A stretch of DNA of 64,000 nt from Protofrankia sp. CiT1 (lineage in GTDB: Bacteria > Actinomycetota > Actinomycetes > Frankiales > Frankiaceae), in assembly GCF_917627385.1 (NCBI RefSeq), contig NZ_CAKJTL010000192.1, positions 1-64,000 on the forward strand, given 5' to 3'. Positions 9,078-39,372 of this stretch are shown piece after piece (within the stretch, counting starts at the first letter, position 1; the number at the start of each line of letters is the position of its first letter). The position numbers and the translations under genes are program-made. The notes under the pieces were generated by a model. That model did no database searches and was not told the DNA's origin. It saw only the letters and a list, made by a program, of their open reading frames with translations.

Positions 9078-9854
9078 ATGTCCCGTACGACCCGTGGCGC
9101 CGCCGTACTCGGCGCCGCCCTCACCGGCGTGATCGCCTTCGCGCTGCCGGCCTCGGCTCATGTCACCGTGCGGCCGACAACAGCCGTCACTGGTACCGAC
9201 ACGACACTCACCTTCGAGGTCCCGACGGAGCGGGACGACGCTGCCACAACCAAAATCGATGTTCAGTTCCCCGCCGATGCCCCGATCGCGTCGGTGCTGG
9301 TCGAGAACATCCCCGGCTGGACCCACGAAATCAGGAAAACCAAACTGGACAAGCCGATCACTACGGATGACGGCACCGTCTCCGAGGGGGTCAGTGAGAT
9401 CATTTGGACCGCTTCATCGGCCGACACAGCCATCAAGTCGGGCGAGTTCGCCCAGTTCGTCATCTCGGCCGGGCCATTGCCGGACAAGGCCGGCACACTC
9501 GCGTTCAAGACTCTGCAGACCTACAGCGACGGCCAGGTCGTGCGATGGATCGACGTCGCGCAGCCTGGACAGGCCGAGCCCGAGCACCCGGCACCGACGC
9601 TGACCATCACCGCGGCGAGCACCGACAGCACCGACACGCACGGCGGTTCAGGAACCGCCGCAGCCGCCGCCAGCACGCCGAACAACACGGGGGCGACCAG
9701 CGGCGTGACGGTGCAGACCGCTTCCCAAAGCGCCGACAGCAGCGACGGAACAGCTCGAGGGCTGGGTATCGCGGGCCTGATCGCCGGGATCGCCGGGATC
9801 GGATTCGGCGCTTTCGCCCTGCTGGCCAGTCGCCGTCGAAACGGCACGCACTAG
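9078..9854 (+). CDS. YcnI-like (DUF1775) copper-binding surface protein
   Basis: The 258-aa protein has a signal peptide ending in ASA with His28 as the first mature residue (HVTVRPTTAVTGTDTTLTFEVP), the hallmark of YcnI-type proteins, which bind copper through that N-terminal His. The DUF1775 domain covers residues about 28-175. A Thr/Ser/Ala-rich linker and a C-terminal membrane helix (IAGLIAGIAGIGFGAFALLA) ending in RRRNGTH follow. GAGAGGATCAGC provides the ribosome site before ATG 9078. Together with the copCD-type gene 2 kb away it completes a copper locus. The 230-base gap in front shows no gene. Confidence 0.92.
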   Translation: MSRTTRGAAVLGAALTGVIAFALPASAHVTVRPTTAVTGTDTTLTFEVPTERDDAATTKIDVQFPADAPIASVLVENIPGWTHEIRKTKLDKPITTDDGTVSEGVSEIIWTASSADTAIKSGEFAQFVISAGPLPDKAGTLAFKTLQTYSDGQVVRWIDVAQPGQAEPEHPAPTLTITAASTDSTDTHGGSGTAAAAASTPNNTGATSGVTVQTASQSADSSDGTARGLGIAGLIAGIAGIGFGAFALLASRRRNGTH

Positions 9855-9944
9855 GCAGTGTTTCCTTGACCATGCGATAGCTAAAAGTGGCAAGTAGATT
9901 TCCCTGAGCGGAAGATCCACATGATCTGGCGGACGAGGATTGCA

Positions 9945-10169
9945 CACCGTTCGCCACGGTGGGAACTCCACGGGGAGCTGTCGCCAAGTCAAGCCACCCC
10001 GCACCAGATAGAAGATCGCGTCCAGGACACGCCGTCGAGCGTGCTTCGCGGGCCGGCCGCCCTTCCCCGCCCGGTTACCCGGCGCGGGCAGGAGCGGTTC
10101 GAGCACCCTCCACTGCGCATCCGTGATCGTCGAGGACGGGTAGAAACCGTCGTGTGGTGCTACGGCCAT
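9945..10169 (-). pseudogene. Remnant of an IS5-type transposase (N-terminus only)
   Basis: Reading leftward from ATG 10169, about 75 codons match the N-terminal DUF4096-type domain of IS5-family transposases (SSTITDAQWRVLEPLLP, then GGRPAKHARRRVLDAIFYLVRGGLTWRQLP and FPPWRTV). Similarity stops after FPPWRTV; the frame continues into unrelated sequence next to the ycnI-like gene. The DDE catalytic part is missing, so the element is dead. Terminal inverted repeats could not be identified. It marks past insertion between the copper locus and the toxin-antitoxin pair. Confidence 0.75.
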
Positions 10170-10379
10170 CGGCCGGCGGGATTCGGGGTGGGTGGGGCAG
10201 GACACACACGTGCACGCAGACGATACTGGCGCTCGGGCTCCTGGTAGGGCGGTTGGATTCGACACCCCTTTACCAGGAGTCCGCTGCCGTGTGGGGGTGC
10301 CACTGCTCGGGCACTCCCCCGCCGCATCCTGAACACAGTGCGGGGGGATGAGATGACGGGCAGCCTGCGGCATCTGCCA

Positions 10380-10397
10380 GGGTACGTTCACGTACCC
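10380..10397. promoter_or_regulatory. Palindromic operator candidate of the toxin-antitoxin operon
   Basis: GGGTACGT TC ACGTACCC is a perfect 8-bp inverted repeat with a 2-base centre, ending 33 bases before the antitoxin start. Ribbon-helix-helix antitoxins commonly bind such short palindromes over their own promoter, so this is the likely autoregulatory site. The binding itself is an inference. Confidence 0.6.
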
Positions 10398-10430
10398 GTA
10401 TTCTGCTGGGTGGGTGAAAGGAGGCTGTCC

Positions 10431-10688
10431 ATGACGGATGCGAATGTGCGGATTCCGGCGGAGGCGCGGGATCGGTTGGCGGCGGTGGCGGCTGCGGAAG
10501 GGTTGTCGTTGCGGGCGTATCTGGCGCGGTTGGCGAGCACGCTGCTGACGCCTGCGGAGCGGGCTGAGCGTGCGGAGCGGGCGCGGGCGGTGCTGCGGGA
10601 GTGGAGTGGTTACGACCCGACGGAGGAGGAGGCCACGCAGGCCCGGGAGGAGTTGGACCGGCGGCTGGCGCGGGCGTTGGGGCGGTGA
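10431..10688 (+). CDS. Ribbon-helix-helix-like antitoxin
   Basis: The 85-aa protein begins MTDANVRIPAEARDRLAAVAAAEGLSLRAYLARLA, which fits an RHH DNA-binding fold of VapB/CopG type: a short beta strand followed by two helices. A charged C-terminal half rich in Glu and Arg (residues 45-85) would wrap the toxin. GAAAGGAGG lies 7 bases before ATG 10431, which sets the start. The stop codon overlaps the GTG start of the next gene, as is typical of antitoxin-toxin pairs. Confidence 0.8.
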   Translation: MTDANVRIPAEARDRLAAVAAAEGLSLRAYLARLASTLLTPAERAERAERARAVLREWSGYDPTEEEATQAREELDRRLARALGR

Positions 10689-11065
10689 GCGACGCGCTGC
10701 ATGTGGTGCTGGATGACACGGCGATGCTCTCGGCCGGGCACGGCAACCGGCTGGCCTCCGAGCTGATTCACCTTGCCCACACCGAGCCGGGCCATTTTCT
10801 GTACGCGCCGGCGTGTGCGCTGGTGGAGGCGGACCGGGCCCGGCCGGGCACCGCCGAGCACATCGCCGCGCTGCCGGCGGTGACCATCGTGGAGTTGGAC
10901 CTGGCGGCCGCGCTCGCAGTGGCCCGCGATACCGGCTGGGCGCCGGCGCACGTCCGCTATGCGGCCGAGCCCACCCCGGAACGTCCCGCGGGTGCGGTGA
11001 TCGCGACGGTGGCACCGGACCGGTGGGTGGGTCAGCCGGTGCGCCTGTTGGACCTCAGCCCGTGA
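10685..11065 (+). CDS. PIN-like (VapC-type) toxin
   Basis: GTG 10685 overlaps the antitoxin stop by three bases. The 126-aa protein has the N-terminal PIN pattern (hydrophobic strand VVLDDTAML with Asp10/Asp11) and Glu48 in ACALVEADR, matching the first acidic residues of VapC ribonucleases. The later acidic positions are less clear (Glu95 or Asp112 might serve), so RNase activity is probable but not certain. The family cleaves tRNA or rRNA when freed from its antitoxin. A strong hairpin follows the stop codon. Confidence 0.75.
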   Translation: MSDALHVVLDDTAMLSAGHGNRLASELIHLAHTEPGHFLYAPACALVEADRARPGTAEHIAALPAVTIVELDLAAALAVARDTGWAPAHVRYAAEPTPERPAGAVIATVAPDRWVGQPVRLLDLSP

Positions 11066-11636: not shown

Positions 11637-11993
11637 GTGAGCCCTGTTCTCGCTTCAAGCCGAACCGGGAACTTTGTCCGTTCGCTGCTGGTCATTTTCA
11701 TGATCACTTTATTGTTCCGGGAGATGTACCTGCTGTGGTTCTTCCATACCGCGGCGTGGACGAGCCGCCCGAGAGAGATCCGCTGGTGCGGATCATGGTA
11801 TGAACTCAGTGACGAACAGGACCGCACCCAGGCGGACGCTCGCAAACTCGCTGGCGGCGCCCTCACCCAGATCGGACGTTTGCCGGTCTGGCGGCCGATC
11901 GTTGCCTACAAGCCCGCGCACGACTGCCCGGAGCACATCTTCGGAAAAGTCGGCACAGACCGTTACACGACCTATCTGATCAGCGGGAACTGA
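11637..11993 (+). CDS. Small hypothetical membrane-associated protein
   Basis: From GTG 11637 the frame encodes 118 residues with one hydrophobic segment (FVRSLLVIFMITLLFREMYLLWFF) and a soluble C-terminal half containing Cys residues (IRWCGSWYEL, HDCPEHIFGK). The codon use is less GC-rich than in its neighbours, suggesting acquired or fast-evolving DNA. The upstream part of the longer open frame has no coding character, so the start is set at the GTG before the membrane segment. It converges with and overlaps the next gene by 14 bases. The function is unknown. Confidence 0.5.
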   Translation: MSPVLASSRTGNFVRSLLVIFMITLLFREMYLLWFFHTAAWTSRPREIRWCGSWYELSDEQDRTQADARKLAGGALTQIGRLPVWRPIVAYKPAHDCPEHIFGKVGTDRYTTYLISGN

Positions 11994-12372
11994 CACCAAG
12001 CCACGGGCCGACCCTGGTTGCCGCGCCGCCGAACGCCGTGTCAGCCCCGGTGGACCCAGCCGTGTCCACGGTCCGGTTCGGCTGGAGCACATGCACACGA
12101 GCGTGGATGGAGTTGCGCTGCTGCAACGCCGCACGAACGGCACGGTGGAGGCCGTCCTCCAGATAGAGCGCGTCGTCCCACTCCACAACATGCGGGAACA
12201 GGTCCCCGTAGAAGGTCGAATCCTCGTCGAGGAGGACGTCAAGCGCGAGCACCCGCTTGGTTGTGATCAGTTGGTCCAACCTGACCTGGCGCGGGGGGAT
12301 CGCGGCCCATTCCCGCTGGCTCAGGCCATGGTCAGGATACGGGCGTCCGTCACCCACATATCTGAAGATCAA
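11980..12372 (-). CDS. Small actinobacterial protein of the type annotated as a VapB-family antitoxin
   Basis: The 130-aa protein (MIFRYVGDGRPYPDHGLSQREWAAIPPRQVRLDQLITTKRVL, then DEDSTFYGDLFPHVV and LYLEDGLHRAVRAALQQRNSIHARV) belongs to a widely conserved actinobacterial family that databases often label as a type II toxin-antitoxin VapB-like protein. No partner toxin sits beside it, so that label may not reflect its job. The C-terminal 35 residues are variable and may be disordered. It is preceded by AT-rich DNA likely to hold its promoter. Confidence 0.7.
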   Translation of the reverse strand: MIFRYVGDGRPYPDHGLSQREWAAIPPRQVRLDQLITTKRVLALDVLLDEDSTFYGDLFPHVVEWDDALYLEDGLHRAVRAALQQRNSIHARVHVLQPNRTVDTAGSTGADTAFGGAATRVGPWLGVSSR

Positions 12373-12784: not shown

Positions 12785-13375
12785 ATGTTCCGCAGGATGA
12801 GAACCCGCCTGATTCTGCGCACAGCCACGCTTGGCGCGATCGTGCTGGTCAGCGCCGGCTGCTCCGGCGGCTCGAACAAGGCTTCGCCACCGGCCCACGC
12901 ATCGGCCACCACGGTGACCACGCCGCGGGCCGGTACGACCGGGGCCGGCCAGGGCGCCGCGGATGGCGCTGTCGCCTCCCGAACGGCCAGCTTCCGCGCT
13001 CCGGGTGGAGGTTCCGGAACCGTCGAGGTCGGTTTCATCAGCCTGAAGGTGGACGGGCGGCTGGCGACGCTGACCGTTGTGTGGACACCGAGGTATAGTG
13101 ATCTCCCACGCGACAAGGAGATCTCGGTTTTCGACATGTTCGCCGCGCATAGCCCGGCCATCGCTCTTGTCGACAGCACCAATCTGAAGCGTTACGTGGT
13201 CGTCCAGGACAGCCGCAACACTGAACTCGGCGCGAGCGGCCCGCGGACGAAGACTGTCAACAACACCCCGGTCAGCGCCTCGTACACGTTCGCGGCGCCG
13301 CCTGAGGACGTGCGGACCGTCGACGTCTATGCCGACGATCGGCTGTTGTTCGACGATGCTCCGGTCAGCCGATAG
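12785..13375 (+). CDS. Secreted lipoprotein of unknown function
   Basis: ATG 12785 follows GGGAGG. The 196-aa product starts with a basic region and a hydrophobic signal ending in a lipobox (LVSAGC), so Cys26 should be lipidated. A Thr/Ala/Gly linker leads to a domain of about 120 residues with repeated beta-strand patterns (GTVEVGFISLKVDGRLATLTVVWTPRY). It overlaps the OmpA-like gene that follows, so the two probably form an operon and may act together at the cell envelope. The globular domain is not recognised. Confidence 0.75.
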   Translation: MFRRMRTRLILRTATLGAIVLVSAGCSGGSNKASPPAHASATTVTTPRAGTTGAGQGAADGAVASRTASFRAPGGGSGTVEVGFISLKVDGRLATLTVVWTPRYSDLPRDKEISVFDMFAAHSPAIALVDSTNLKRYVVVQDSRNTELGASGPRTKTVNNTPVSASYTFAAPPEDVRTVDVYADDRLLFDDAPVSR

Positions 13376-14021
13376 CCCGGGTGGCCGAAGCGGCGGCGCA
13401 CGACGTCGGCGCCCGGCCACCGCGATCTCCATCGTCACGGTTGCCGTCGTCACGGTTGTCGCCTTGGTCGCCGGCGCCGTTCTCTGGGCCGACGAACCGA
13501 ACGCCTGGGCCGCGTCGGAGCCGCCCGCACCCTCGGCCACAGTCAGCGATCAGGCCATCGCCGCCTCGATCCAGCGAATCGAGGTGGCGGACGCGGTCCG
13601 TCCCATCGAGGTCGACACAGCTGTTGTCCCGCTGCGCACCGAGCGGCGGGACGCCTCCGGTGTGGCCGTGACCATCAGCTCGGATGTGTTGTTCGCCTTC
13701 GACTCCGCCGATCTGACCGAGACGGCCCGCGAGCACCTCACGGACATAGCGGCGGGGATCGGCGGCGCCAGGGGGACCGTCGCGGTCAACGGCTACACCG
13801 ACAGCACCGGCACACCCGCATACAACGTGATCCTCTCCCAACGACGGGCGAACGCCGTCGCGGACCTGCTGCGCCCAAGAGCCCCACACGACGTGCTGGT
13901 CTCCGCGACCGGCCAGGGTTCCGCCAGCCCCGTCGCCGCGAACACCAATCCGGACGGTTCGGACAACAGCGCCGGCCGCGCCCAGAACCGCCGCGTCACC
14001 ATCACCTACCGCACCTCATGA
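13356..14021 (+). CDS. OmpA-family peptidoglycan-binding membrane protein
   Basis: From ATG 13356 (overlapping the lipoprotein gene by 20 bases) the 221-aa protein has one membrane segment (AISIVTVAVVTVVALVAGAVLW) and a C-terminal OmpA domain. The OmpA signature is visible: FAFDSADLTETAREHL, then VNGYTDSTGTPAYNVILSQRRANAVADLL and NRRVTITYR. Such domains bind the diaminopimelate of peptidoglycan. An earlier start at 13329 is possible. The pairing with a lipoprotein suggests an envelope-anchored complex. Confidence 0.85.
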   Translation: MLRSADSPGGRSGGARRRRPATAISIVTVAVVTVVALVAGAVLWADEPNAWAASEPPAPSATVSDQAIAASIQRIEVADAVRPIEVDTAVVPLRTERRDASGVAVTISSDVLFAFDSADLTETAREHLTDIAAGIGGARGTVAVNGYTDSTGTPAYNVILSQRRANAVADLLRPRAPHDVLVSATGQGSASPVAANTNPDGSDNSAGRAQNRRVTITYRTS

Positions 14022-14185
14022 CCGGTGTTGGACCACAACCTGATGCTGGGCCATGACCGACCGATGCCGGCCATCCTCCTCCGCGGAGCACACCATCTGG
14101 GTGTCATCTACACGTCCGACACCCACAGTCACGATCCGCCCGGTTACTATCAGCGCCACGGTTCGCACTCACCGAGGCAGGTCCC

Positions 14186-16777
14186 GTGGCACACTACGAC
14201 GTCTTCCTCAGCTGCGCGCCGCAGGACGCCGGCTGGGGAACGAAGATCAGGGATGCGCTCCGGGCAAAGGGATACCAGGTTGTTCCCGCCGACGGACCAT
14301 ATCCACCGATCGTACCGTCGGAAGGACCTCCCCCGGCGCCGGAATCGGCCGACGTCCTGATCGTCGTGGTCTCACCCTCCTATTTCCGATCGAGTAGCAT
14401 CCCCCGATTACTGCGGACGTTCCTCGAATCACGTAGACCCGTACTACCCGTCATCGTCAGAGAAACCGGACTGCCATCCGAGCTGCGAAATATACCGGCC
14501 CTGGATCTGACCGCCGTCTACCCCGAAGAAATCGATGACGCCGTCGCGGCGGTCGTACGGACCTACACAAGAACACGACAACATGCTCTCATGGAACGAC
14601 TGCCGGATGTCCTGAGGGCGAACGAGGACGCATCAGCGGCGAGTGCTGCCCACGGACGCAAGATTTTCGTCATCCACGCTCACGACTCGGACGACGCCAG
14701 GGAAATCTGGAGCGCCTTCGTGCTTCGCCGCGAAACGCGGCTGGAACCGATTCTATGGCAGATCGACGCGCTGCTCGATAATCCCGTTGGGCATGGGCAG
14801 ACCAGCAGCGAAAACGGTATCGACAATCAGGTACTGCCAGCCGAGAACGGCGACGTGGTCCTGTTGCTGATAAGCCGTGGGCTGCTTCGTTCCCAGTTCC
14901 TGGAATCCGTCGCGGTCGAGAAGCTGCTGGCCGAACAAAGCGCCGGCCGTCTGATCGTGATACCGGTGATCACCCATCCGATTGCCTGGCAGCGGACCGA
15001 GCTTCGGGATCTCACTCCGCTGCCGAGCGGTGGCGTGCCCATCAGCGAATGGGAGAGCCGGGGCGCGGCGATCGCGAGTGTCGTCGAGGGCGTCTGGCTC
15101 GCCATCGACGAGGCCACCCGGAACACCTGGGAAGCCAGGTCCGGACCTCCGGGCGGCGCTTACCCAGCTGGTCGATATACAACGCCCCCGGCACCACTAA
15201 TCCTAGGAGACAGCACACCCTACGGCACCGATCCGGCGGCGTCCACAGAGGTCTTCGGCTTCCACGACGTCTCCGACTTCCACGACGTCTTCGACCTGAA
15301 CGACGTCTTCAAGCGCAGCGGTGTGCCGTCACTGACCTTTGTCGAGCCGCCGGAGTTCTTCCGGCTCATCATGGCGTTGCGCACCACCGGCCGGGGGATC
15401 GTCGTCGAAGGGCCGTCCGGTATCGGCAAGACGACGCTGCTCAAGAAGGCGCTGGAACGGGCTGGGCCCTCGCTGGGACAGGTCCAGGTGCTCAGTGCCC
15501 GCAAACCAGCCGACCGCCCGGCGATCGAACAGCTCCCGGAGCACCATGTCGGCACGGTTGCCGTCGACGACTTCCACCGGCTGCCCGCGGAGCTGCGGGA
15601 GAGGCTGCTCGACCACCTCAAAGTGCTCGCCGACGAAGAATCGGCGGCCAAGCTCCTCGTCGTGGGGATACCGGGTACCGGCGCGAGCCTGGTCGACCTG
15701 GGTTTCGACGTGGCCACCCGCATCGACGTCTTCCGGCTGTCCGCGGCCGGTCTGCGCACGGACGGCAACGCCCTCGTCCTCGACGTCATCGGCAAAGGCG
15801 AACAAGCGCTCAATCTGGTCTTCAAGGACCGTGCGCAGATCGTGCGGGCGGCGGCGGGGAGCCTGCTGACCGCGCAGATGCTGTGCTGGGAGCTGGCCGT
15901 TCTCCACGGTGTCGAGCGGACTCAGCCGTTCTCCGTGGAGATAGCCGGCGACGTCACCCGTGCGGAGACAAGGGTGATGCGTGATCTGGCCGCCAAGTAC
16001 GACCCGGAGCTGGCCGGCTTCGCCGCGCTCGACGGACCCGCCGAAGCCACCTGCATCCATCTGCTTACCCAGCTGGGCCGCCATGATGACGGGGTCCTGC
16101 GCCTTGACGACCTTCGCGAGGACGTACGGGTGGACAACCCTGGCTTCGCGGCCGGGATCGACGCCTTCATCCGCAGCCACCCGACCGGGCTGACCGGCCC
16201 CTCCGCCGCTATCGAGAAACATCTGCATTACGATCCACGGGCACGGATGATTATCGGCGAGGACCCTCAGCTACTTTTCTACCTACGGCGCCGCAGCGCC
16301 GAACAGCTCGCCGAGGTGGCTGGCAAGCGCCTGCCCCGGCCTCGCGACCAGGTTTTCGTCAGCTACAGCCACCGGGACGGGGCCTGGCTCGAGCGACTGG
16401 ACACCCACCTGCGTCCACTCATCCGCGACGGAATGCTCGACCTGTGGGATGATCGGCGTATTCAGGCCGGAGACCGCTGGCTGACCGAGATCACTCAGGC
16501 CCTGGAACGGGCAAAAATTGCGATCCTTCTGGTCAGTGCCAATTTTCTCGCATCCGACTTCATCAATCACAAAGAAGTGCCGAAGCTGTTAGCGGCGGCG
16601 AACACCGGTGGCTGTCGGATCATACCAGTAATCATTGGGGCGTGCTTATTCAGCGAGGACAAGCGGCTGAATATGTTCCAGGCGGCCAACCCTCCGGACA
16701 AGCCGTTGGACGCGCTGCCCAAGCATGCCGCTGACCGTTATCTGGTGGAGGTGGCGCGCCACTTTCTTCACCCATAG
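14186..16777 (+). CDS. Triple-TIR protein with central P-loop NTPase; candidate immune effector
   Basis: The 863-aa protein has four recognisable parts. Residues 1-130 are TIR-like (HYDVFLSCAPQDAGWGTKI, VLIVVVSPSYF). Residues 158-310 form a second TIR/SEFIR-like unit (KIFVIHAHDSDDAREIW, VVLLLISRGLLRSQFLESVAVEKLL). Residues 375-715 hold a STAND-like NTPase with Walker A GPSGIGKTT (409-417) and Walker B VAVDDFH. Residues 721-863 are a third, canonical TIR (QVFVSYSHRDGAWLERL, LLVSANFLASDFINHKEVPKLL), with Glu797 where NAD-cleaving TIRs carry their catalytic Glu. The first TIR lacks an acidic residue at that place. GTG 14186 follows GAGGCAGG. TIR-NTPase proteins are known antiphage effectors; this role is inferred. 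No partner gene is obvious. Confidence 0.85.
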   Translation: MAHYDVFLSCAPQDAGWGTKIRDALRAKGYQVVPADGPYPPIVPSEGPPPAPESADVLIVVVSPSYFRSSSIPRLLRTFLESRRPVLPVIVRETGLPSELRNIPALDLTAVYPEEIDDAVAAVVRTYTRTRQHALMERLPDVLRANEDASAASAAHGRKIFVIHAHDSDDAREIWSAFVLRRETRLEPILWQIDALLDNPVGHGQTSSENGIDNQVLPAENGDVVLLLISRGLLRSQFLESVAVEKLLAEQSAGRLIVIPVITHPIAWQRTELRDLTPLPSGGVPISEWESRGAAIASVVEGVWLAIDEATRNTWEARSGPPGGAYPAGRYTTPPAPLILGDSTPYGTDPAASTEVFGFHDVSDFHDVFDLNDVFKRSGVPSLTFVEPPEFFRLIMALRTTGRGIVVEGPSGIGKTTLLKKALERAGPSLGQVQVLSARKPADRPAIEQLPEHHVGTVAVDDFHRLPAELRERLLDHLKVLADEESAAKLLVVGIPGTGASLVDLGFDVATRIDVFRLSAAGLRTDGNALVLDVIGKGEQALNLVFKDRAQIVRAAAGSLLTAQMLCWELAVLHGVERTQPFSVEIAGDVTRAETRVMRDLAAKYDPELAGFAALDGPAEATCIHLLTQLGRHDDGVLRLDDLREDVRVDNPGFAAGIDAFIRSHPTGLTGPSAAIEKHLHYDPRARMIIGEDPQLLFYLRRRSAEQLAEVAGKRLPRPRDQVFVSYSHRDGAWLERLDTHLRPLIRDGMLDLWDDRRIQAGDRWLTEITQALERAKIAILLVSANFLASDFINHKEVPKLLAAANTGGCRIIPVIIGACLFSEDKRLNMFQAANPPDKPLDALPKHAADRYLVEVARHFLHP

Positions 16778-16879
16778 GTCGCGTCACCCGCCGGCCGAGC
16801 CAACCCGAACGGGTGATAGCGCCAGCACGGTCACAGCTCGTCATGCCTTGCACGCGCAACAGCCGTACCGTCTCGAAGC

Positions 16880-17749
16880 ATGGCCGAGGTAATGCGGGGG
16901 CTGTCGGGCGACACCTACAACGTACCGAAGATAGTGAACATAACGGATGCATCGGACCAGCCCGGCGCGTCGATAGCAGGTGCCGCGGGCCCGGCCGTGC
17001 TCTTCGAGCGGGTCACGATCGCCGCCGGCCGGACACCGGTACTCACGAACGTCCACGGAACCGTCGAAACAGGCCATGCCGTCGCTATTATAGGCCCACG
17101 GCACGGTGGAAAATCAGTACTGCTCAAATCGATACTCGGGCTGGCACCGGTGATCAAAGGATCGGTCACCGTGCTCGGTCAGCCGCCGGGGCAGGCCCGC
17201 CGCCAGGTCGCGTATATCCCACCGGCCGACAGTTTTGACAGCAAAACTCGAGTCACCGTCATCCAGGTCGTACTCATGGGGCGCTACCGATGGATCGGAT
17301 GGGTACGGCGCCCCACCCTCGCCGACCGGACGGTTGCCGCCCGCGCGCTGGCGAGAGTCGGGCTCGCCGACCGTTCCCGTGACCGTTTCGAGACGCTGTC
17401 CGGCACCCAGCGTCAACGGGTGATGCTCGCGCGCGCCATAGCCCAGCAGCCACGCATCCTCCTGCTCGACGAGCCGCTCACCGAGGTCGACGTGCCCAGC
17501 CAGGCAGCGCTGTTGGCCACCCTCGCAACGATGCGATCAGCCGGCGCCAGCGTCGTGATCTCAACCGACGATCTCGCCCTCGCGCATCTGGCCTGCGACG
17601 ACGTGTTCCTGTTCAACCACCGTCAGATCGCTTTCGGGCCGACCGCGGCCGTCCTGACCCAGCATGCGCTCGATACCGCGTTCGGTGACAGCACCGACAG
17701 CACACTGGAATCATTGCGCGACGCAACAATCATGACCCAATACAGATAG
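16880..17749 (+). CDS. Orphan metal-type ABC transporter ATPase with altered catalytic residues
   Basis: The 289-aa protein resembles ATPases of the zinc/manganese uptake family (VVLMGRYRWIGWVRRPTLADR is typical). Walker A is GPRHGGKS (72-79), the signature is LSGTQ (173-177) and Walker B ends LLLDEP (Asp197, Glu198). The Q-loop Gln, expected in YVPQ, is Pro115 (YIPPAD), and the switch His, usually SHD, is Asp230 (STDD). No permease or binding protein is nearby. It may be a decayed or non-transport ATPase. ATG 16880 is the longest supported start, and about 35 variable residues precede the ABC domain. Confidence 0.8.
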   Translation: MAEVMRGLSGDTYNVPKIVNITDASDQPGASIAGAAGPAVLFERVTIAAGRTPVLTNVHGTVETGHAVAIIGPRHGGKSVLLKSILGLAPVIKGSVTVLGQPPGQARRQVAYIPPADSFDSKTRVTVIQVVLMGRYRWIGWVRRPTLADRTVAARALARVGLADRSRDRFETLSGTQRQRVMLARAIAQQPRILLLDEPLTEVDVPSQAALLATLATMRSAGASVVISTDDLALAHLACDDVFLFNHRQIAFGPTAAVLTQHALDTAFGDSTDSTLESLRDATIMTQYR

Positions 17750-17916: not shown

Positions 17917-18921
17917 GTGATCGCGGGTCGTCCAGTGTCATCTGGTAGTCATCCAGGCGCATCCGCGGAGCGGGCCATCCGGATGGCGACGGTCGCGGCC
18001 GTCACCCTGGTCGCGGCGGTGGCAGCCTTCGTCTCCTACCGCCACATGCGTGGCGTCGCCATCGAGCACGGCGAGGACTCCATGACCGCGGCGGTGCTGC
18101 CGCTGAGCGTGGACGGGCTGATCGTCGCCGCCTCCATGAGCATGTGGGCGGACCGCCGTGCGGGCCGGCGCCGTTCCCAGCTGTCCTATGCCCTGCTCAC
18201 CATGGGCGCATGCGCGTCGCTGACGGCAAACGTCCTGCATGCCGACCCGAACCTGACAGCCAGGGCTATCGCGGCCTGGCCACCGTTGGCTCTGCTCGGT
18301 TCCTACGAACTGCTCATGCGTCAGATCCGCCCCGTGGGCCCGCTCCCCGACGCCCGCCGCCCGACCACACACACGACAGATGTTCCGGTCGCGCCCGGTG
18401 AGAGGCTCAGCGGTACGGTCAGCATTCCCGCCCCGCGCACAGGGCAGCCCACGCTCGGGCGGTCACCACTGTTCCTGGCTCCCGTCCCAGTACAAACACC
18501 CGATCACGTCGAAGCCGTCGAAAATGTCGATCAGCCGGATCCAGCGGGCCCCCTGAATCCGGCTGATCCAGTCGACGGACGCCGTGCGGCCGGGTACGAA
18601 GCGGTGGCGGAGGATGTGGACGATCTACCGGACACCGCGGCGGAACCGTCCGGCCAGGCATTCCCAGGGCTGGACACCGCCGGAAAACGGGACGCCATCA
18701 TCCGCGCGCTGGAACAGAGCGACGGCTCGGCGGCACAGGCTGCCGCGCTGCTCGCCGCCCGCGGTATCAGTGTCAGCAAAAGCTGGGTCTACCAGGTCCG
18801 CAAGGACACCCGCTTCGCCGGTATCGACACCGGACCGCTGCCGATACCGTCCCGTCCTCCGGCCCGTCCGGCCCGTGGCCTGGGCCGCGGCCTCACCCCG
18901 ACCTGGACCCGCACCCCCTGA
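17917..18921 (+). CDS. DUF2637 membrane protein with C-terminal helix-turn-helix-like region
   Basis: Residues about 25-130 carry four hydrophobic segments in the DUF2637 pattern (AVAAFVSYRHM, AAVLPLSVDGLIVAASMSMW). These proteins are frequent in actinobacterial plasmids and integrative elements, where SpdB-type relatives help intramycelial spread. A Pro-rich linker leads to residues 245-285 (AIIRALEQSDGSAAQAAALLAARGISVSKSWVYQVRKD), which look like a helix-turn-helix. The start is GTG 17917. It stands alone here and may be a remnant of, or accessory to, a mobile element. Confidence 0.8.
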   Translation: MIAGRPVSSGSHPGASAERAIRMATVAAVTLVAAVAAFVSYRHMRGVAIEHGEDSMTAAVLPLSVDGLIVAASMSMWADRRAGRRRSQLSYALLTMGACASLTANVLHADPNLTARAIAAWPPLALLGSYELLMRQIRPVGPLPDARRPTTHTTDVPVAPGERLSGTVSIPAPRTGQPTLGRSPLFLAPVPVQTPDHVEAVENVDQPDPAGPLNPADPVDGRRAAGYEAVAEDVDDLPDTAAEPSGQAFPGLDTAGKRDAIIRALEQSDGSAAQAAALLAARGISVSKSWVYQVRKDTRFAGIDTGPLPIPSRPPARPARGLGRGLTPTWTRTP

Positions 18922-29934: not shown

Positions 29935-32900
29935 ATGGTCGCCTGCCCGACATGCGGAAAGGCCAACCCAGAGGAAGCACGCTTCTGCTTCTCCTGCGGT
30001 ACTCCGCTGCCCACGTTCGGGATCGGCGCTCGCAAGACTGTAACGATCATGTTCTGCGACGTCACCGGCTATACCGCCATCGGTGAACAGCTCGACTCCG
30101 AACCGCTACAGCAGGTGATGTGGCGCTTCTTCAGCGCCGCCCGCGAAGTGATCTCGGCCCACGGAGGCAGTGTCGAGAAGTTCATCGGGGACGCGGTGTT
30201 CGCTGTTTTCGGTATCCCGATCCTGCATGAGGACGATGCGCTGCGCGCCGCCCGCGCCGCCCTCGAGATCCGCGCCAGCATGGCCACGCTCAACGCCGAT
30301 CTCCAGCGGGACTGGGGATTTCGGTTCCGGATCCGCATCGGCATCAACACGGGCGAGGTCACCGTCGGCGGGCCTGGTACCGGTGGCGGCGTGACCGGCG
30401 ATGCCGTCAATGTCGCTTCCCGCCTGGAGGAGGCCGCCGACCCCGACGAGATCCTCATCGCTGAGGCAACCCTGCGGATGATTCGCTCGGATGTGCGCAG
30501 CGAACCGGTCGGCCCCCTGGTGGTCCAGGGCAAGAAGGCCCCCCTGCGGGCCCACCGCCTGATCGGTCTGGCGCACCCCGGCGTCGGCCCCGGCGCGCGG
30601 TTCGCCCCGGACGGCTTTGCCGCACCAGTGATCGGCCGGGACCGGGAACGCCGCCGCCTCGATGACGCCCTCGAACAGGTGATCGAAGAACGTACCTGCC
30701 ACCTGTTTACCCTGCTCGGCCCCGCCGGCATCGGAAAATCCCGCATGGTCGGGGAGTTCTGCGAGGCGATGGCTCCGCGGGCGACGGTGCTCACCGGGCG
30801 CTGTCTGTCCTACGGCGAAGGCATCACGTACTGGCCGCTGATGGAAATGGTCCGCCAGGCGACCGGCATGTCCGCCGACGAGAGCGCGCCCGAGGGCCGG
30901 CGTCGCCTGCGCGAGCTGCTGGATGGCGTCGACAACGTCATCGGCGACGCCGCCGCCGTGGTGGACGGGTTGGCACCGCTGGTCGGTCTCGGGGGTGCTG
31001 AAGTTGGCGCGCAGGAGAGCTTCTGGGCGGTCCGCACCTTTCTGGCCGCGCTCGCCGAGAAACGTCCGCTGATCGTCTGGTTCGATGACGTCCACTGGGC
31101 TGAGCCGACCCTGCTGGACCTGATCGAGCATGTCGCCGACTGGTCCCGGGAGGCACCGATCCTGCTGCTGTGCCTGTCCCGGCCGGAGCTGCTGGAGGAG
31201 CGCCGGAGCTGGGGCGGCGGCAAACTCAACGCCACGTCGATGCTGTTGCAGCCGCTGAGCGAGGAACGCTGCCAGCGGCTGATCCGCACGTTGATGGGGT
31301 CCAACGACCTCGACCCCGCACTGGTTTCCAGAATCACCGAGTCAGCCGCGGGGAACCCGCTGTTCGTCGAACAGACGCTCGCGGCCCTGGTCGACGACGG
31401 GTTGTTGCGCCGGGAGGGCGACCGGTGGATCGCGACCGGCAACCTTGGCTCGGTCCAGGTCCCACCCACGATCTCCGCGCTGCTCGCGGCCCGTCTCGAC
31501 CGGCTCAACATGCACGAGCGACGGGTGCTGGAACGTGCCGCCGTTGTCGGTCAGCGGTTCTACCTCGACGCGGTGGTCGAGCTGTCCGCCCCGGCGGACC
31601 GGGCCGGCGTGGCCGCGCACTGCCAGGCGCTGGTACGCAAGGAACTGGTTCATGCCGACCGGTCGGACCTGCCCGGTGTGGAGGCCTTCCGGTTCCTGCA
31701 CGTCCTGCTGCGCGACTGCGCCTACCAGGCGACATCGAAGCGCCAGCGCGCCGAGCTGCACCAAGGCTTCGCCGCCTGGTTGCAGGCCAGGATGATGGGG
31801 CGCCCTGGTGAGCATGATGAGCTGGTCGGGTATCACCTGGAACAGGCCTACCGGTACCGGGTCGAGCTCGGGCTGCGCGACACCGAGACCGCGGAGCTCG
31901 GGCACCGCGCCGCGGCCTGCCTGATCGAAGCCGCTGACCGGGTCCGCCAGGGCGACGAGACAGGCGCGGCCGGGCTGCTCAAACGAGCGATCACGCTCCT
32001 TCCCGTCACCGATCCGCTGCGCATCCGTGCCGAGATCGACCTTGGCTGGGCGCTGCACTCGTTCGGCCGGTTCAGCGACGCCGAACGCATGCTGCGCCAA
32101 GCCACGGACCGGGCCACCCGGATCGGCGACACCGGCCTGCGGGCGCACGCGCGGCTCGCCCACCTTCGGCTCATGTTCGCGACGAGCCCGGAGGGGCTGG
32201 TCGCTGAGACCCTGGGTGAGGCGACCCGAGCGCTACCGATCTTCATCCAGAACGGGGACGAGGTCGGGGCCGCGCTCGCCTGCCGCAGCCAGGCCGCCGC
32301 TCACATGGCGGCTGGCCGCTATGCCCTGGCCGAGCGGGCCATGCAGGCCGCCGTCCGCCACTCCGAGGAGTCCGGCGTACTTCGCGATGCCCAGACCATG
32401 CGCCGTGACCTCGTCCATCTGCTGAGCCTTGCCCCCCGCCCGGTCGGCGAGTCGGTCGACCGGGCCACGCGGGCACTGGCCGGTGTTGGGGACGACCGCG
32501 GCCTGCGCCGTTCCCTGCTCGCCCAGCTGGCCGTGCTGTTCACGATGGCGGGAGACCTCGATGCCGCCATGGACCACCTGGCCCGGGCTGAAGAGATCGT
32601 CTGGGACGTCCGGAGCCCCCGCGGAGATCCGCTCTACGGGGGCTTCGTTGTTGCCCGTATCGCCCTGCTGACCGATGACCTCGACACAGCCGAGCACGAG
32701 CTGCGGCGCAGCTGCCGCCGGCTGGCCCGGATGGGTGAACGCGCGCACCTGGCCACGCGTGCCGCGGCCCTCGCCGACGTCTTGCTCAAGCTCGAACGCC
32801 TCGACGAGGCAGCCACCTACGTGTCCCGCTCCCGCGACGCCGCTGCCGGCGACCAGGTCCCCGCGCAGGCTGGCTGGTGCGGGGTGCACGCGAAGGTGCT

Positions 32901-33153
32901 CGCGATGCGCGGACGTGAGGTCGAGGCCGTCCGGTTCGCCGAGGCCGCGTGCGATCTCGCCGGCAGGACCGACGACTGGGACGGGCAGGCGCAGGCATGG
33001 CTGGCCTATGCCGAGGTGCTCCACCGGACCGGCCAGGGCGACACGGCCGGCCCGAAGATCGACACGGCGATCGCGTGCTACGAGAAGAAGGGCAACATCG
33101 CCGGGGCTGCCCAGGCCCGCCGGTTGTTCGAGGAGTTCTCGGTCCCCGCGTGA
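29935..33153 (+). CDS. Class III adenylate cyclase fused to AAA ATPase and TPR-like region
   Basis: The 1072-aa signalling protein starts with a zinc ribbon (CPTCGKANPEEARFCFSCG, 4-22). The cyclase domain (about 34-200) keeps the metal Asp residues 42 and 86, Lys82 in EKFIGD, Asp156 and the Asn159/Arg163 pair of VNVASR, so it should make cAMP. An AAA/STAND-type domain follows with Walker A GPAGIGKS (262-269) and Walker B VWFDDVHW near 384. The C-terminal half is all-helical with TPR-like repeats. The architecture matches a large actinobacterial family of predicted sensors; the input signal is unknown. It stands alone and starts at ATG 29935. Confidence 0.92.
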   Translation: MVACPTCGKANPEEARFCFSCGTPLPTFGIGARKTVTIMFCDVTGYTAIGEQLDSEPLQQVMWRFFSAAREVISAHGGSVEKFIGDAVFAVFGIPILHEDDALRAARAALEIRASMATLNADLQRDWGFRFRIRIGINTGEVTVGGPGTGGGVTGDAVNVASRLEEAADPDEILIAEATLRMIRSDVRSEPVGPLVVQGKKAPLRAHRLIGLAHPGVGPGARFAPDGFAAPVIGRDRERRRLDDALEQVIEERTCHLFTLLGPAGIGKSRMVGEFCEAMAPRATVLTGRCLSYGEGITYWPLMEMVRQATGMSADESAPEGRRRLRELLDGVDNVIGDAAAVVDGLAPLVGLGGAEVGAQESFWAVRTFLAALAEKRPLIVWFDDVHWAEPTLLDLIEHVADWSREAPILLLCLSRPELLEERRSWGGGKLNATSMLLQPLSEERCQRLIRTLMGSNDLDPALVSRITESAAGNPLFVEQTLAALVDDGLLRREGDRWIATGNLGSVQVPPTISALLAARLDRLNMHERRVLERAAVVGQRFYLDAVVELSAPADRAGVAAHCQALVRKELVHADRSDLPGVEAFRFLHVLLRDCAYQATSKRQRAELHQGFAAWLQARMMGRPGEHDELVGYHLEQAYRYRVELGLRDTETAELGHRAAACLIEAADRVRQGDETGAAGLLKRAITLLPVTDPLRIRAEIDLGWALHSFGRFSDAERMLRQATDRATRIGDTGLRAHARLAHLRLMFATSPEGLVAETLGEATRALPIFIQNGDEVGAALACRSQAAAHMAAGRYALAERAMQAAVRHSEESGVLRDAQTMRRDLVHLLSLAPRPVGESVDRATRALAGVGDDRGLRRSLLAQLAVLFTMAGDLDAAMDHLARAEEIVWDVRSPRGDPLYGGFVVARIALLTDDLDTAEHELRRSCRRLARMGERAHLATRAAALADVLLKLERLDEAATYVSRSRDAAAGDQVPAQAGWCGVHAKVLAMRGREVEAVRFAEAACDLAGRTDDWDGQAQAWLAYAEVLHRTGQGDTAGPKIDTAIACYEKKGNIAGAAQARRLFEEFSVPA

Positions 33154-36963: not shown

Positions 36964-39372
36964 GTGGCGAACGGAAACTGGCCTTTGTTGATCGATCGCT
37001 CGCTGGTGCAGACCGCGCTCCCCGGCTACCAGGTCGAAGGGGAACTCGGCCGTGGTGGCTATGGGCTTGTGCTCGGCGGCCGACATCGTTTGATCGGCCG
37101 GAATGTCGCGATCAAAGTCCTGCTCGACACCGCCGGCGACGTGAACCTGCGCGCCCGTTTCCTCGCCGAGGCACGGGTACTGGCCGAACTCGACCATCCG
37201 CATATCGTGCGCATCCACGACTACATCGAGCATCAGGGCACCTGTCTGTTCGTCATGGAGCTGCTCCCCGGCGGCACGCTGCGCCAGCGGTTGGCGGCCG
37301 GCCCGATGTCGCCCGAGGCCACCTGCGCGCTGGGTCTTGCCGCGGCGGGCGCGCTGGATGCCGCGCACGCCCACAACGTCCTGCACCGCGACATCAAGCC
37401 TGACAACATGATGTTCGCTTCGGACGGGCTGCTCAAAGTCACCGACTTCGGCGTGGCAAAGATTTTCGAAGGTACCGAGACGACGGCGAGCGGGGTTCTC
37501 GGGACTCCTCGCTACATGGCTCCCGAACAGATCACCGGTGGTCGTCTGTATGTCTCGACCGATCTCTACGCGCTCGGCGGGGTGCTCTACGAGCTACTGG
37601 CCCGCCGGCCGCTTTTCGGCCGGGCCCTGTCCGTAGGCGCGCTGGTCAACCATCACCTCAATGTGAATCCACCACCGTTGACCGACGTGCCCGAGCCGAT
37701 CAGTAGAGTGATCATGAAAACGCTGGTCAAGGACCCAGCCGCCCGCTTCCCGAGTGCCACCCAGTTCGCACTCGAACTCGCCCAGGCCGCCGCAAGCACG
37801 TTCGGCCCGGACTGGCTCGCCCAGTCAGGTATCGGGGTTCGCCTCGACGACGAGGTACGGCACGCGGCACAGCGCCAGCTGGCCCGGCCGGGCCCGGCCG
37901 GCCCGCGGCCGCCGGCGGCATCCGGGTCCGCGCCGAGCGGTCCGCGCGGATGGTCTCCGGACGCTGACCCCTGGGTGCCGCCGGCGACGGACACTCCGCC
38001 GACCAGGCTCGCCCCGGAGCAGTTCCCGCCGCGCGGCCAGGGAGCCGGACCGGCTCAGCAACCGCTGGCACAACCGGCCTCAGGATGGTGGCAGGCGAAC
38101 CCGTTCGTCCCGCCGGCCGGCCGGGGTTTCACTCCGGCCGGGACGCCTGCTCCGGCCTGGCCGGCCCAACCGCAACCAGTGTCCGGCTACCCACCACCGT
38201 GGCAGCAACAACGCCCTGCGCAGCCGTCCCAGCCGTCCCAGCCGTCCCGCCGGGCCTGGCTCATCGCCGGTGTCGCGGGCATCGTGATACTCGCGCTGGT
38301 CTTCGGCGTCGCGCTGATGACCGCCGAGAACCATCATCGCGATCAAGCCACGCCGTCCGCGACCTACTCCCCTGGTGTGGCCTATGCCGGCCCGGCGGTG
38401 ACGCTGTCGGGGCTGGACGCCTATGACGTCACCATCGACCGGGCTGGTGCGCTCTACATCACCGACTGGACCAGTCACCAAATCCACAAAATCGGCAAGG
38501 ACGGGACCGTCACGACCGTCGCCGGCACTGGGACCAGCGGCTTCACCTCGGACGGCGGTCCCGCGAACCAGGCACAGCTCGACAGCCCAGCCGCAACGGT
38601 GCTGGACTCGTCGGGAAACATCTATATCAGCGACTCAAGCAACCAGCGCATTCGGAAGATCGATACAAACGGGATCATCACTACGATCGCGGGTACCGGG
38701 ACGGCCGGCTTCACCGGGGATGGCGGCCCGGCGTCCGCCGCGCAGCTGAACGAACCGAATGGGCTGGCCCTCGCGGCCGACGGCACCCTCTACGTCGCCG
38801 ACTACGGCAACCAGCGCATCCGGCGGATCAGCCCGAGCGGCGTTATCACGACCGTGGCCGGTGTCGGTACCAAGGGCTTTTCCGGGGACGGCGGGCCTGC
38901 CACAGCAGCCGAGTTCGACAACCCGAACGGGCTGGCGATCGCCGCCGACGGCACCCTCTACGTGGCGGATCTCGGCAACGAGCGCGTCCGGAAGATCGAC
39001 CCGCATGGGACCATCAGCACGGTGGCCGGTAACGGCGCCTACGGCTATGACGGGGACGGCGGCCCCGCGACCGCGGCGAAACTGCGCATCCCAAGCGTCG
39101 CGGTCAGTCCTGACGGCATCCTCTACATCGCTGATTACGGCAACCAGCGCGTCCGGCGGGTGACCTCCGACGGTATGATCACCACCGTTGCCGGTAACGG
39201 AACCGAAGGCTACGCCGGGGACGGCGGCGCAGCCACCCGGGCACAGCTGTCAAGCCCGACCGGCACCGCTGTCGACGGCGCGGGCAACCTCTACATCGCC
39301 GACGACAAGAACGACCGGATCCGCCGGGTCGACTCGAACGGTGTCATCACGACCGTGGCCAGGGCGAAATAA
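36964..39372 (+). CDS. Ser/Thr protein kinase with extracellular NHL beta-propeller (PknD-like)
   Basis: Membrane receptor kinase of 802 residues. The kinase domain (21-285) has the glycine loop LGRGGYG, Lys51, catalytic HRD (141-143) and DFG (Asp161), all intact. A Pro-rich linker with QPSQPSQPS repeats precedes one membrane helix near 430-452. Outside lie six NHL-type repeats (TVAGTGTSGF-DGGPA-AQL-SP-IYISD-NQRIRKID pattern) that should form a beta-propeller. Mycobacterial PknD has the same plan, with the propeller as the sensor. The GTG start at 36964 lacks a strong ribosome site. The ligand and substrates are unknown. Confidence 0.94.
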   Translation: MANGNWPLLIDRSLVQTALPGYQVEGELGRGGYGLVLGGRHRLIGRNVAIKVLLDTAGDVNLRARFLAEARVLAELDHPHIVRIHDYIEHQGTCLFVMELLPGGTLRQRLAAGPMSPEATCALGLAAAGALDAAHAHNVLHRDIKPDNMMFASDGLLKVTDFGVAKIFEGTETTASGVLGTPRYMAPEQITGGRLYVSTDLYALGGVLYELLARRPLFGRALSVGALVNHHLNVNPPPLTDVPEPISRVIMKTLVKDPAARFPSATQFALELAQAAASTFGPDWLAQSGIGVRLDDEVRHAAQRQLARPGPAGPRPPAASGSAPSGPRGWSPDADPWVPPATDTPPTRLAPEQFPPRGQGAGPAQQPLAQPASGWWQANPFVPPAGRGFTPAGTPAPAWPAQPQPVSGYPPPWQQQRPAQPSQPSQPSRRAWLIAGVAGIVILALVFGVALMTAENHHRDQATPSATYSPGVAYAGPAVTLSGLDAYDVTIDRAGALYITDWTSHQIHKIGKDGTVTTVAGTGTSGFTSDGGPANQAQLDSPAATVLDSSGNIYISDSSNQRIRKIDTNGIITTIAGTGTAGFTGDGGPASAAQLNEPNGLALAADGTLYVADYGNQRIRRISPSGVITTVAGVGTKGFSGDGGPATAAEFDNPNGLAIAADGTLYVADLGNERVRKIDPHGTISTVAGNGAYGYDGDGGPATAAKLRIPSVAVSPDGILYIADYGNQRVRRVTSDGMITTVAGNGTEGYAGDGGAATRAQLSSPTGTAVDGAGNLYIADDKNDRIRRVDSNGVITTVARAK

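Follow-up and report, generated by a model that had tools for sequence, protein, structure and literature searches.

What could be the function of a protein in which three TIR domains are arranged around a P-loop NTPase in a single chain, and does such an arrangement occur elsewhere? The question is raised by an 863-aa protein encoded by a single gene at positions 14186-16777 (forward strand) of the window, i.e. the whole 64,000-nucleotide stretch of DNA analysed here. The ORF begins with GTG, has no internal stop and encodes, in this order, TIR1, TIR2, a linker, the NTPase and TIR3. Since the GC content is 67% and antisense ORFs of about 300 aa overlap the gene, the open frame alone is little proof of coding. 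Coding potential, however, is highest for every domain in the frame of this ORF, with TIR1 giving the weakest signal. One 863-aa chain with three TIR-like domains around a P-loop NTPase had been proposed from the DNA letters and ORF translations (hereafter, the sequence-only reading), and this is confirmed, sequence profiles supporting all three TIRs.

TIR domains, catalytic position and NTPase

All domain coordinates are on the forward strand. TIR3 (residues 717-863; 16334-16774) is canonical, matching Pfam TIR_2 with E=2.7e-17 as well as TIR structures in the PDB. TIR1 (residues 1-130; 14186-14575) is degenerate, the region of helix alphaB being replaced by a Pro-rich stretch, GPYPPIVPSEGPPPAPE. 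It matches TIR_2 over residues 6-111 (E=2e-12), its profile aligns with that of TIR3 in hhalign (97.6%, E=3.5e-12), and the same profile matches the structures of MyD88, PdTIR and BtTir (down to 5e-12). TIR2 (residues 155-312; 14648-15121) gave no match in the Pfam scan when cut out alone, and the PDB search with its profile, which has three rows only, found no TIR. Its identity is supported by the PADLOC model of the Thoeris TIR protein ThsB (E=2.1e-12), which is also matched by TIR3, by the hhalign comparison of the 3-row profile with the TIR3 profile (98.3%, E=1.2e-14) and by a tblastn search against plasmids, in which nearly all matched genes are annotated as TIR (best E=7e-10). The plasmid search with TIR1 produced no match, and viral scans with the TIR profiles retrieved one locus each or none. 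The TIR1 profile found an 875-aa protein on a viral contig (L095:1261-3888), which by eye consists of a TIR, an NB-ARC-like NTPase and TPRs. In AlphaFold models, whose input excluded whole-genome loci, the TIRs have pLDDT of about 30-65 with a thin alignment, and TIR1 and TIR2 are of low confidence in both predictions; the fold of these two domains is thus assigned from sequence profiles. Even so, TIR structures rank first when the low-confidence N-terminal model is used as a Foldseek query. The profiles bear out the earlier placement of TIR-like domains at residues 1-130 and 158-310, the second boundary being shifted slightly.

The three TIRs differ at the position of the catalytic glutamate. 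Glu797 of TIR3 (16574-16576) aligns both with residue 84 of TIR-SAVED (7qqk), taken to be the catalytic Glu of that protein, and with KE in PdTIR (3h16), in agreement with the catalytic place previously suggested for this residue. The corresponding column is occupied by Leu75 in TIR1 (14408-14410) and by Ala243 in TIR2 (14912-14914). Two of the TIRs are thus dead and one is potentially live; judging from the aligned residues, TIR3 alone could work as a normal NADase. The sequence-only reading had noted the lack of an acidic residue in the first TIR; this holds, and the split is stronger than stated then, as TIR2 has also lost the Glu.

TIR2 is followed by a linker (residues 313-368; 15122-15289), which is of low confidence in the structure model, and by the NTPase with a helical C-terminal part (residues 369-715; 15290-16330), delineated by alignment, structure model and Foldseek. 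This module produced weak Pfam matches to AAA_22/AAA_16. Its model is confident (pLDDT about 80-95 over most of residues 371-715) and retrieves the clamp loader, Orc/Cdc6, RuvB and the plant NLR RPP1 with Foldseek. The ASCE P-loop has both Walker motifs: GPSGIGKT (residues 409-416; 15410-15433) and VAVDD (residues 458-462; 15557-15571), the latter followed by FHRL. The Walker A core and the DD of Walker B are invariant in 19 relatives. Inspection of the conserved alignment columns by eye revealed no GRExE-type STAND motif at the start of the NTPase, no repeat sensor (TPR, WD40 or LRR) was found in the 863-aa protein by the Pfam scan, TIR3 following the NTPase directly, and the PADLOC TIR-NLR model matches the protein with only E=0.015. 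The data show a fold of AAA+/Orc-Cdc6/STAND type, with the STAND class itself not established. The STAND-like NTPase of the sequence-only reading is thus borne out as a fold of this broader type.

Relatives and phylogeny

The three-TIR layout was not recognised at first reading, and our search for relatives found a precedent, a 965-aa protein of Saccharothrix sp. NRRL B-16314 (L028) with TIR-TIR-NTPase-TIR organization. It has three significant TIR_2 stretches in the same order and an NTPase 51% identical to ours. It differs in having about 190 additional N-terminal residues without a Pfam match and a TIR2 that keeps the Glu, and is uncharacterised. The layout is therefore rare, not unique. 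We also considered whether the Saccharothrix protein has, as its N-terminal part, a fused form of the EAD1-TIR gene found beside two same-family loci, but discarded this for want of blastp support.

Within the source's own family, TIR-NTPase-TIR relatives are present in four genomes (L015, L016, L017 and L019), and a further locus (L018) encodes a masked N-terminus followed by NTPase-TIR. Divergently transcribed EAD1-TIR genes lie beside two of these NTPase-TIR genes (L018:11114-12733 and L019:11328-12767). Four proteins from the source's order (L020-L023) are TIR-NTPase forms without the last TIR, one of which (L023) contains EAD1 according to Pfam. Scanning of genome contigs outside the order with an alignment query revealed at least 15 candidate loci; with the NTPase sequence alone the same scan found no relative. 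One candidate, L041, turned out to be an ABC transporter rather than a relative. A Thermogemmatispora protein has the TIR-NTPase-TIR architecture, and the remaining genome-contig relatives are NTPase-TIR proteins of about 500 aa. Two of the latter genes (L033 and L040) are split into two or three ORFs and apparently broken.

The NTPase is encoded in 9 of the 35 genomes of the source's order, including the source genome. Outside the family, the NTPase profile search detected it in a single genome among the roughly 360 sampled from the class, which makes the comparative evidence for the fused clade thin; no further genome was found at the phylum level. The class-wide count is that of the NTPase profile, which replaced a whole-protein search scoring only two candidates per genome.

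In the maximum-likelihood tree of the NTPase, nine fused forms make up one clade (100/99), apart from the 22 NTPase-TIR forms, and the core family of about 500-aa NTPase-TIR proteins is its sister. Alignment and tree thus place the three-TIR protein in a clade of the NTPase-TIR family with fused N-terminal TIRs. Core members have a homologous NTPase (28-39% identity), and the Glu is invariant in the TIR behind it. They differ in lacking N-terminal TIRs, in having a TIR from another TIR_2 subgroup and in forming a separate clade. The two three-TIR proteins, from the source and from Saccharothrix, are not sisters in the NTPase tree; three TIRs may be ancestral or may have arisen twice. A catalytic-type Glu is present in the C-terminal TIR of every core member read and of seven of the eight fused-clade members; in the fused Thermogemmatispora relative Gln replaces Glu in the last TIR. 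N-terminal TIRs without the Glu recur as well, namely TIR2 in Thermogemmatispora and TIR1 in Saccharothrix. The core family is spread over at least seven phyla, its best PHROG is phrog_6841 and its NTPase part resembles the PADLOC candidate PDC-S59. A search of open-licence literature found no paper naming the family.

Genomic context of the gene and of its relatives

Compared with four congeneric genomes, the gene lies within an insertion of about 2.8 kb (14024-16826; the empty site is about 86 bp in one of them, G025). It is flanked on the left by an OmpA-domain gene (13329-14021, +) and on the right by an ABC transporter ATPase gene (16880-17749, +), both conserved in the congeners. These two genes adjoin each other in the four congeners, and the three-TIR gene is the lone gene between them. 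The insertion points to horizontal gain or repeated loss. Neither a partner gene nor a ThsA-type effector is found beside the gene, the neighbours being the OmpA-domain and ABC genes, and the previous observation that there is no obvious partner is consistent with this single-gene insertion. The insertion contains no transposase; an ORF with an IS4/5-type transposase domain (DUF4096; 9648-11015, −) is about 3 kb from the TIR gene. A DUF2637 gene (17917-18921) is close to the insertion and belongs to a family which we presume to be associated with actinomycete mobile elements. The gene at 11980-12372 (−) strongly matches a VapB-like antitoxin family (PF23719, E=1.5e-50). No recognised defence island surrounds the three-TIR gene in the window: PADLOC matches among window genes (PD-T4-6, mad6, MkoA and similar) were considered as such and rejected, being one protein each with generic kinase, protease or cyclase similarity. 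More distant genes of the window include those for a 1072-aa protein with zinc ribbon, guanylate cyclase, AAA_16 and TPR domains (29935-33153) and for a Ser/Thr kinase with NHL repeats (36964-39372).

The core NTPase-TIR family is also found on mobile elements. It occurs on 14 IMG/VR viral contigs; on one of them, a P2-like phage contig (L086), the NTPase-TIR gene has a tail-completion gene on one side and a baseplate gene on the other. All viral matches are on IMG/VR contigs; no record of the phage collection was matched by tblastn. Five plasmids encode core members, three of them with Thoeris-like genes within about 0.4-7 kb. ThsB-type TIR genes and patatin genes accompany NTPase-TIR at about 0.4 to 7 kb on the plasmids of Gloeothece and Pantoea, with SLOG-patatin and macro genes also nearby in the latter, while the Curtobacterium plasmid has a caspase and a TIR gene within 2 kb, recalling type IV Thoeris as described in PMC12847820. 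Among 85 neighbour proteins of nine genomic loci, single proteins match defence models such as ThsB and dGTPase; in this sample, which has no control set, such matches are only suggestive of a defence context. In the majority of core loci no TIR gene lies next to NTPase-TIR, and the fused-clade loci of the source's family show no consistent defence neighbours.

Proposed function

We consider it most likely, with a probability of roughly 0.6, that the three-TIR protein is a single-gene, NTPase-gated TIR immune effector, presumably antiphage. For its mode of action we infer the following. The NTPase module would sense a phage-related trigger, and nucleotide binding would drive oligomerisation, bringing TIR3 domains into the head-to-tail assembly needed by TIR NADases. 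TIR3, through Glu797, would then cleave NAD+ and thereby stop the growth of the infected cell, while TIR1 and TIR2, having lost the Glu, may serve as non-catalytic partners, i.e. as a scaffold, an assembly surface or a brake for TIR3. An NTPase-gated TIR3 NADase with non-catalytic TIR1 and TIR2 is our best reading because TIR NADases act via composite sites between head-to-tail TIRs in two-stranded assemblies (PMC12847820) and because phage protection has been shown for a single-gene TIR-STAND-TPR system (PMC9122126). The antiphage role, already suggested for a TIR-NTPase in the sequence-only reading, now has contextual evidence: related genes are carried by viral contigs and by plasmids, in some cases next to Thoeris-like genes, and the gene itself is a single-gene insertion. 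Also counted in favour of an immune role were the domain evidence, the invariant Walker A/B motifs, the C-terminal Glu and the literature; counted against it were the lack of a recognisable sensor and of a defence island, the absence of matches in the phage collection, the thin evidence for the fused clade, the inconsistent neighbourhoods of its same-family loci and the Gln of Thermogemmatispora.

TIR-NLR of P4 satellites, shown to be phage-protective (PMC9122126), likewise combines TIR and NTPase in one protein, but has one N-terminal TIR and C-terminal TPRs, whereas the three-TIR protein lacks repeats and carries TIRs at both ends. SpbK is a TIR NADase that works through TIR assembly during abortive infection (PMC12847820), but has one TIR and no NTPase. 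Thoeris resembles the protein in its ThsB, whose model TIR2 and TIR3 match; here, however, the NTPase is part of the same chain and a ThsA-type partner is lacking. We tentatively suggest, as a possibility rather than a probability, that the dead TIR1 and TIR2 are built-in assembly partners in cis. They would supply the composite site with its head-to-tail surface or block it, and on an NTPase oligomer the single live TIR of each chain would thus be under the control of two pseudo-enzyme TIRs. If true, this would be a logic not reported in the open-licence literature searched. The dead/live split in one chain makes a clean system for studying the regulation of TIR assembly and NAD+ cleavage, a question common to plant and animal TIR proteins. 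In addition, the analysis ties the three-TIR protein to a widespread, apparently unnamed NTPase-TIR family on viral contigs and plasmids, which lends itself to direct testing as a one-gene antiphage system.

Alternatively, TIR3 may produce a signal, either a cADPR isomer or an ADPR conjugate, instead of depleting NAD+, with a separate genomic effector responding, as in Thoeris. The similarity of TIR2 and TIR3 to ThsB and the three plasmids with ThsB-type TIR, SLOG-patatin, caspase + TIR and macro genes near core NTPase-TIR are compatible with such a role. However, no effector adjoins this lone insertion, nor is there an adjacent TIR gene at most core loci, and we regard signalling as rather unlikely. 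It is less probable still that the protein is a regulator in a multicellular actinomycete, acting on development, on symbiosis or on programmed death, as part of an EAD/TIR/NTPase conflict network, rather than being specifically antiphage. EAD1 is known from the conflict networks of multicellular bacteria (PMC7159879, PMC8195603), same-family clade members carry it or adjoin EAD1-TIR genes, and the NTPase is concentrated in the source's order (9/35 genomes, against one in about 360 elsewhere in the class). Nevertheless, the sister core family extends across many phyla, viral contigs and plasmids, and a patchy single-gene insertion ill matches a conserved developmental role. Finally, that TIR1 and TIR2 are relics of a decaying fusion in which only NTPase-TIR3 works, as the loss of the Glu in both and of alphaB in TIR1 together with the weakest coding signal of TIR1 could imply, is very improbable, given that both domains keep the reading frame and coding signal and that inactive N-terminal TIRs recur in Thermogemmatispora and Saccharothrix.
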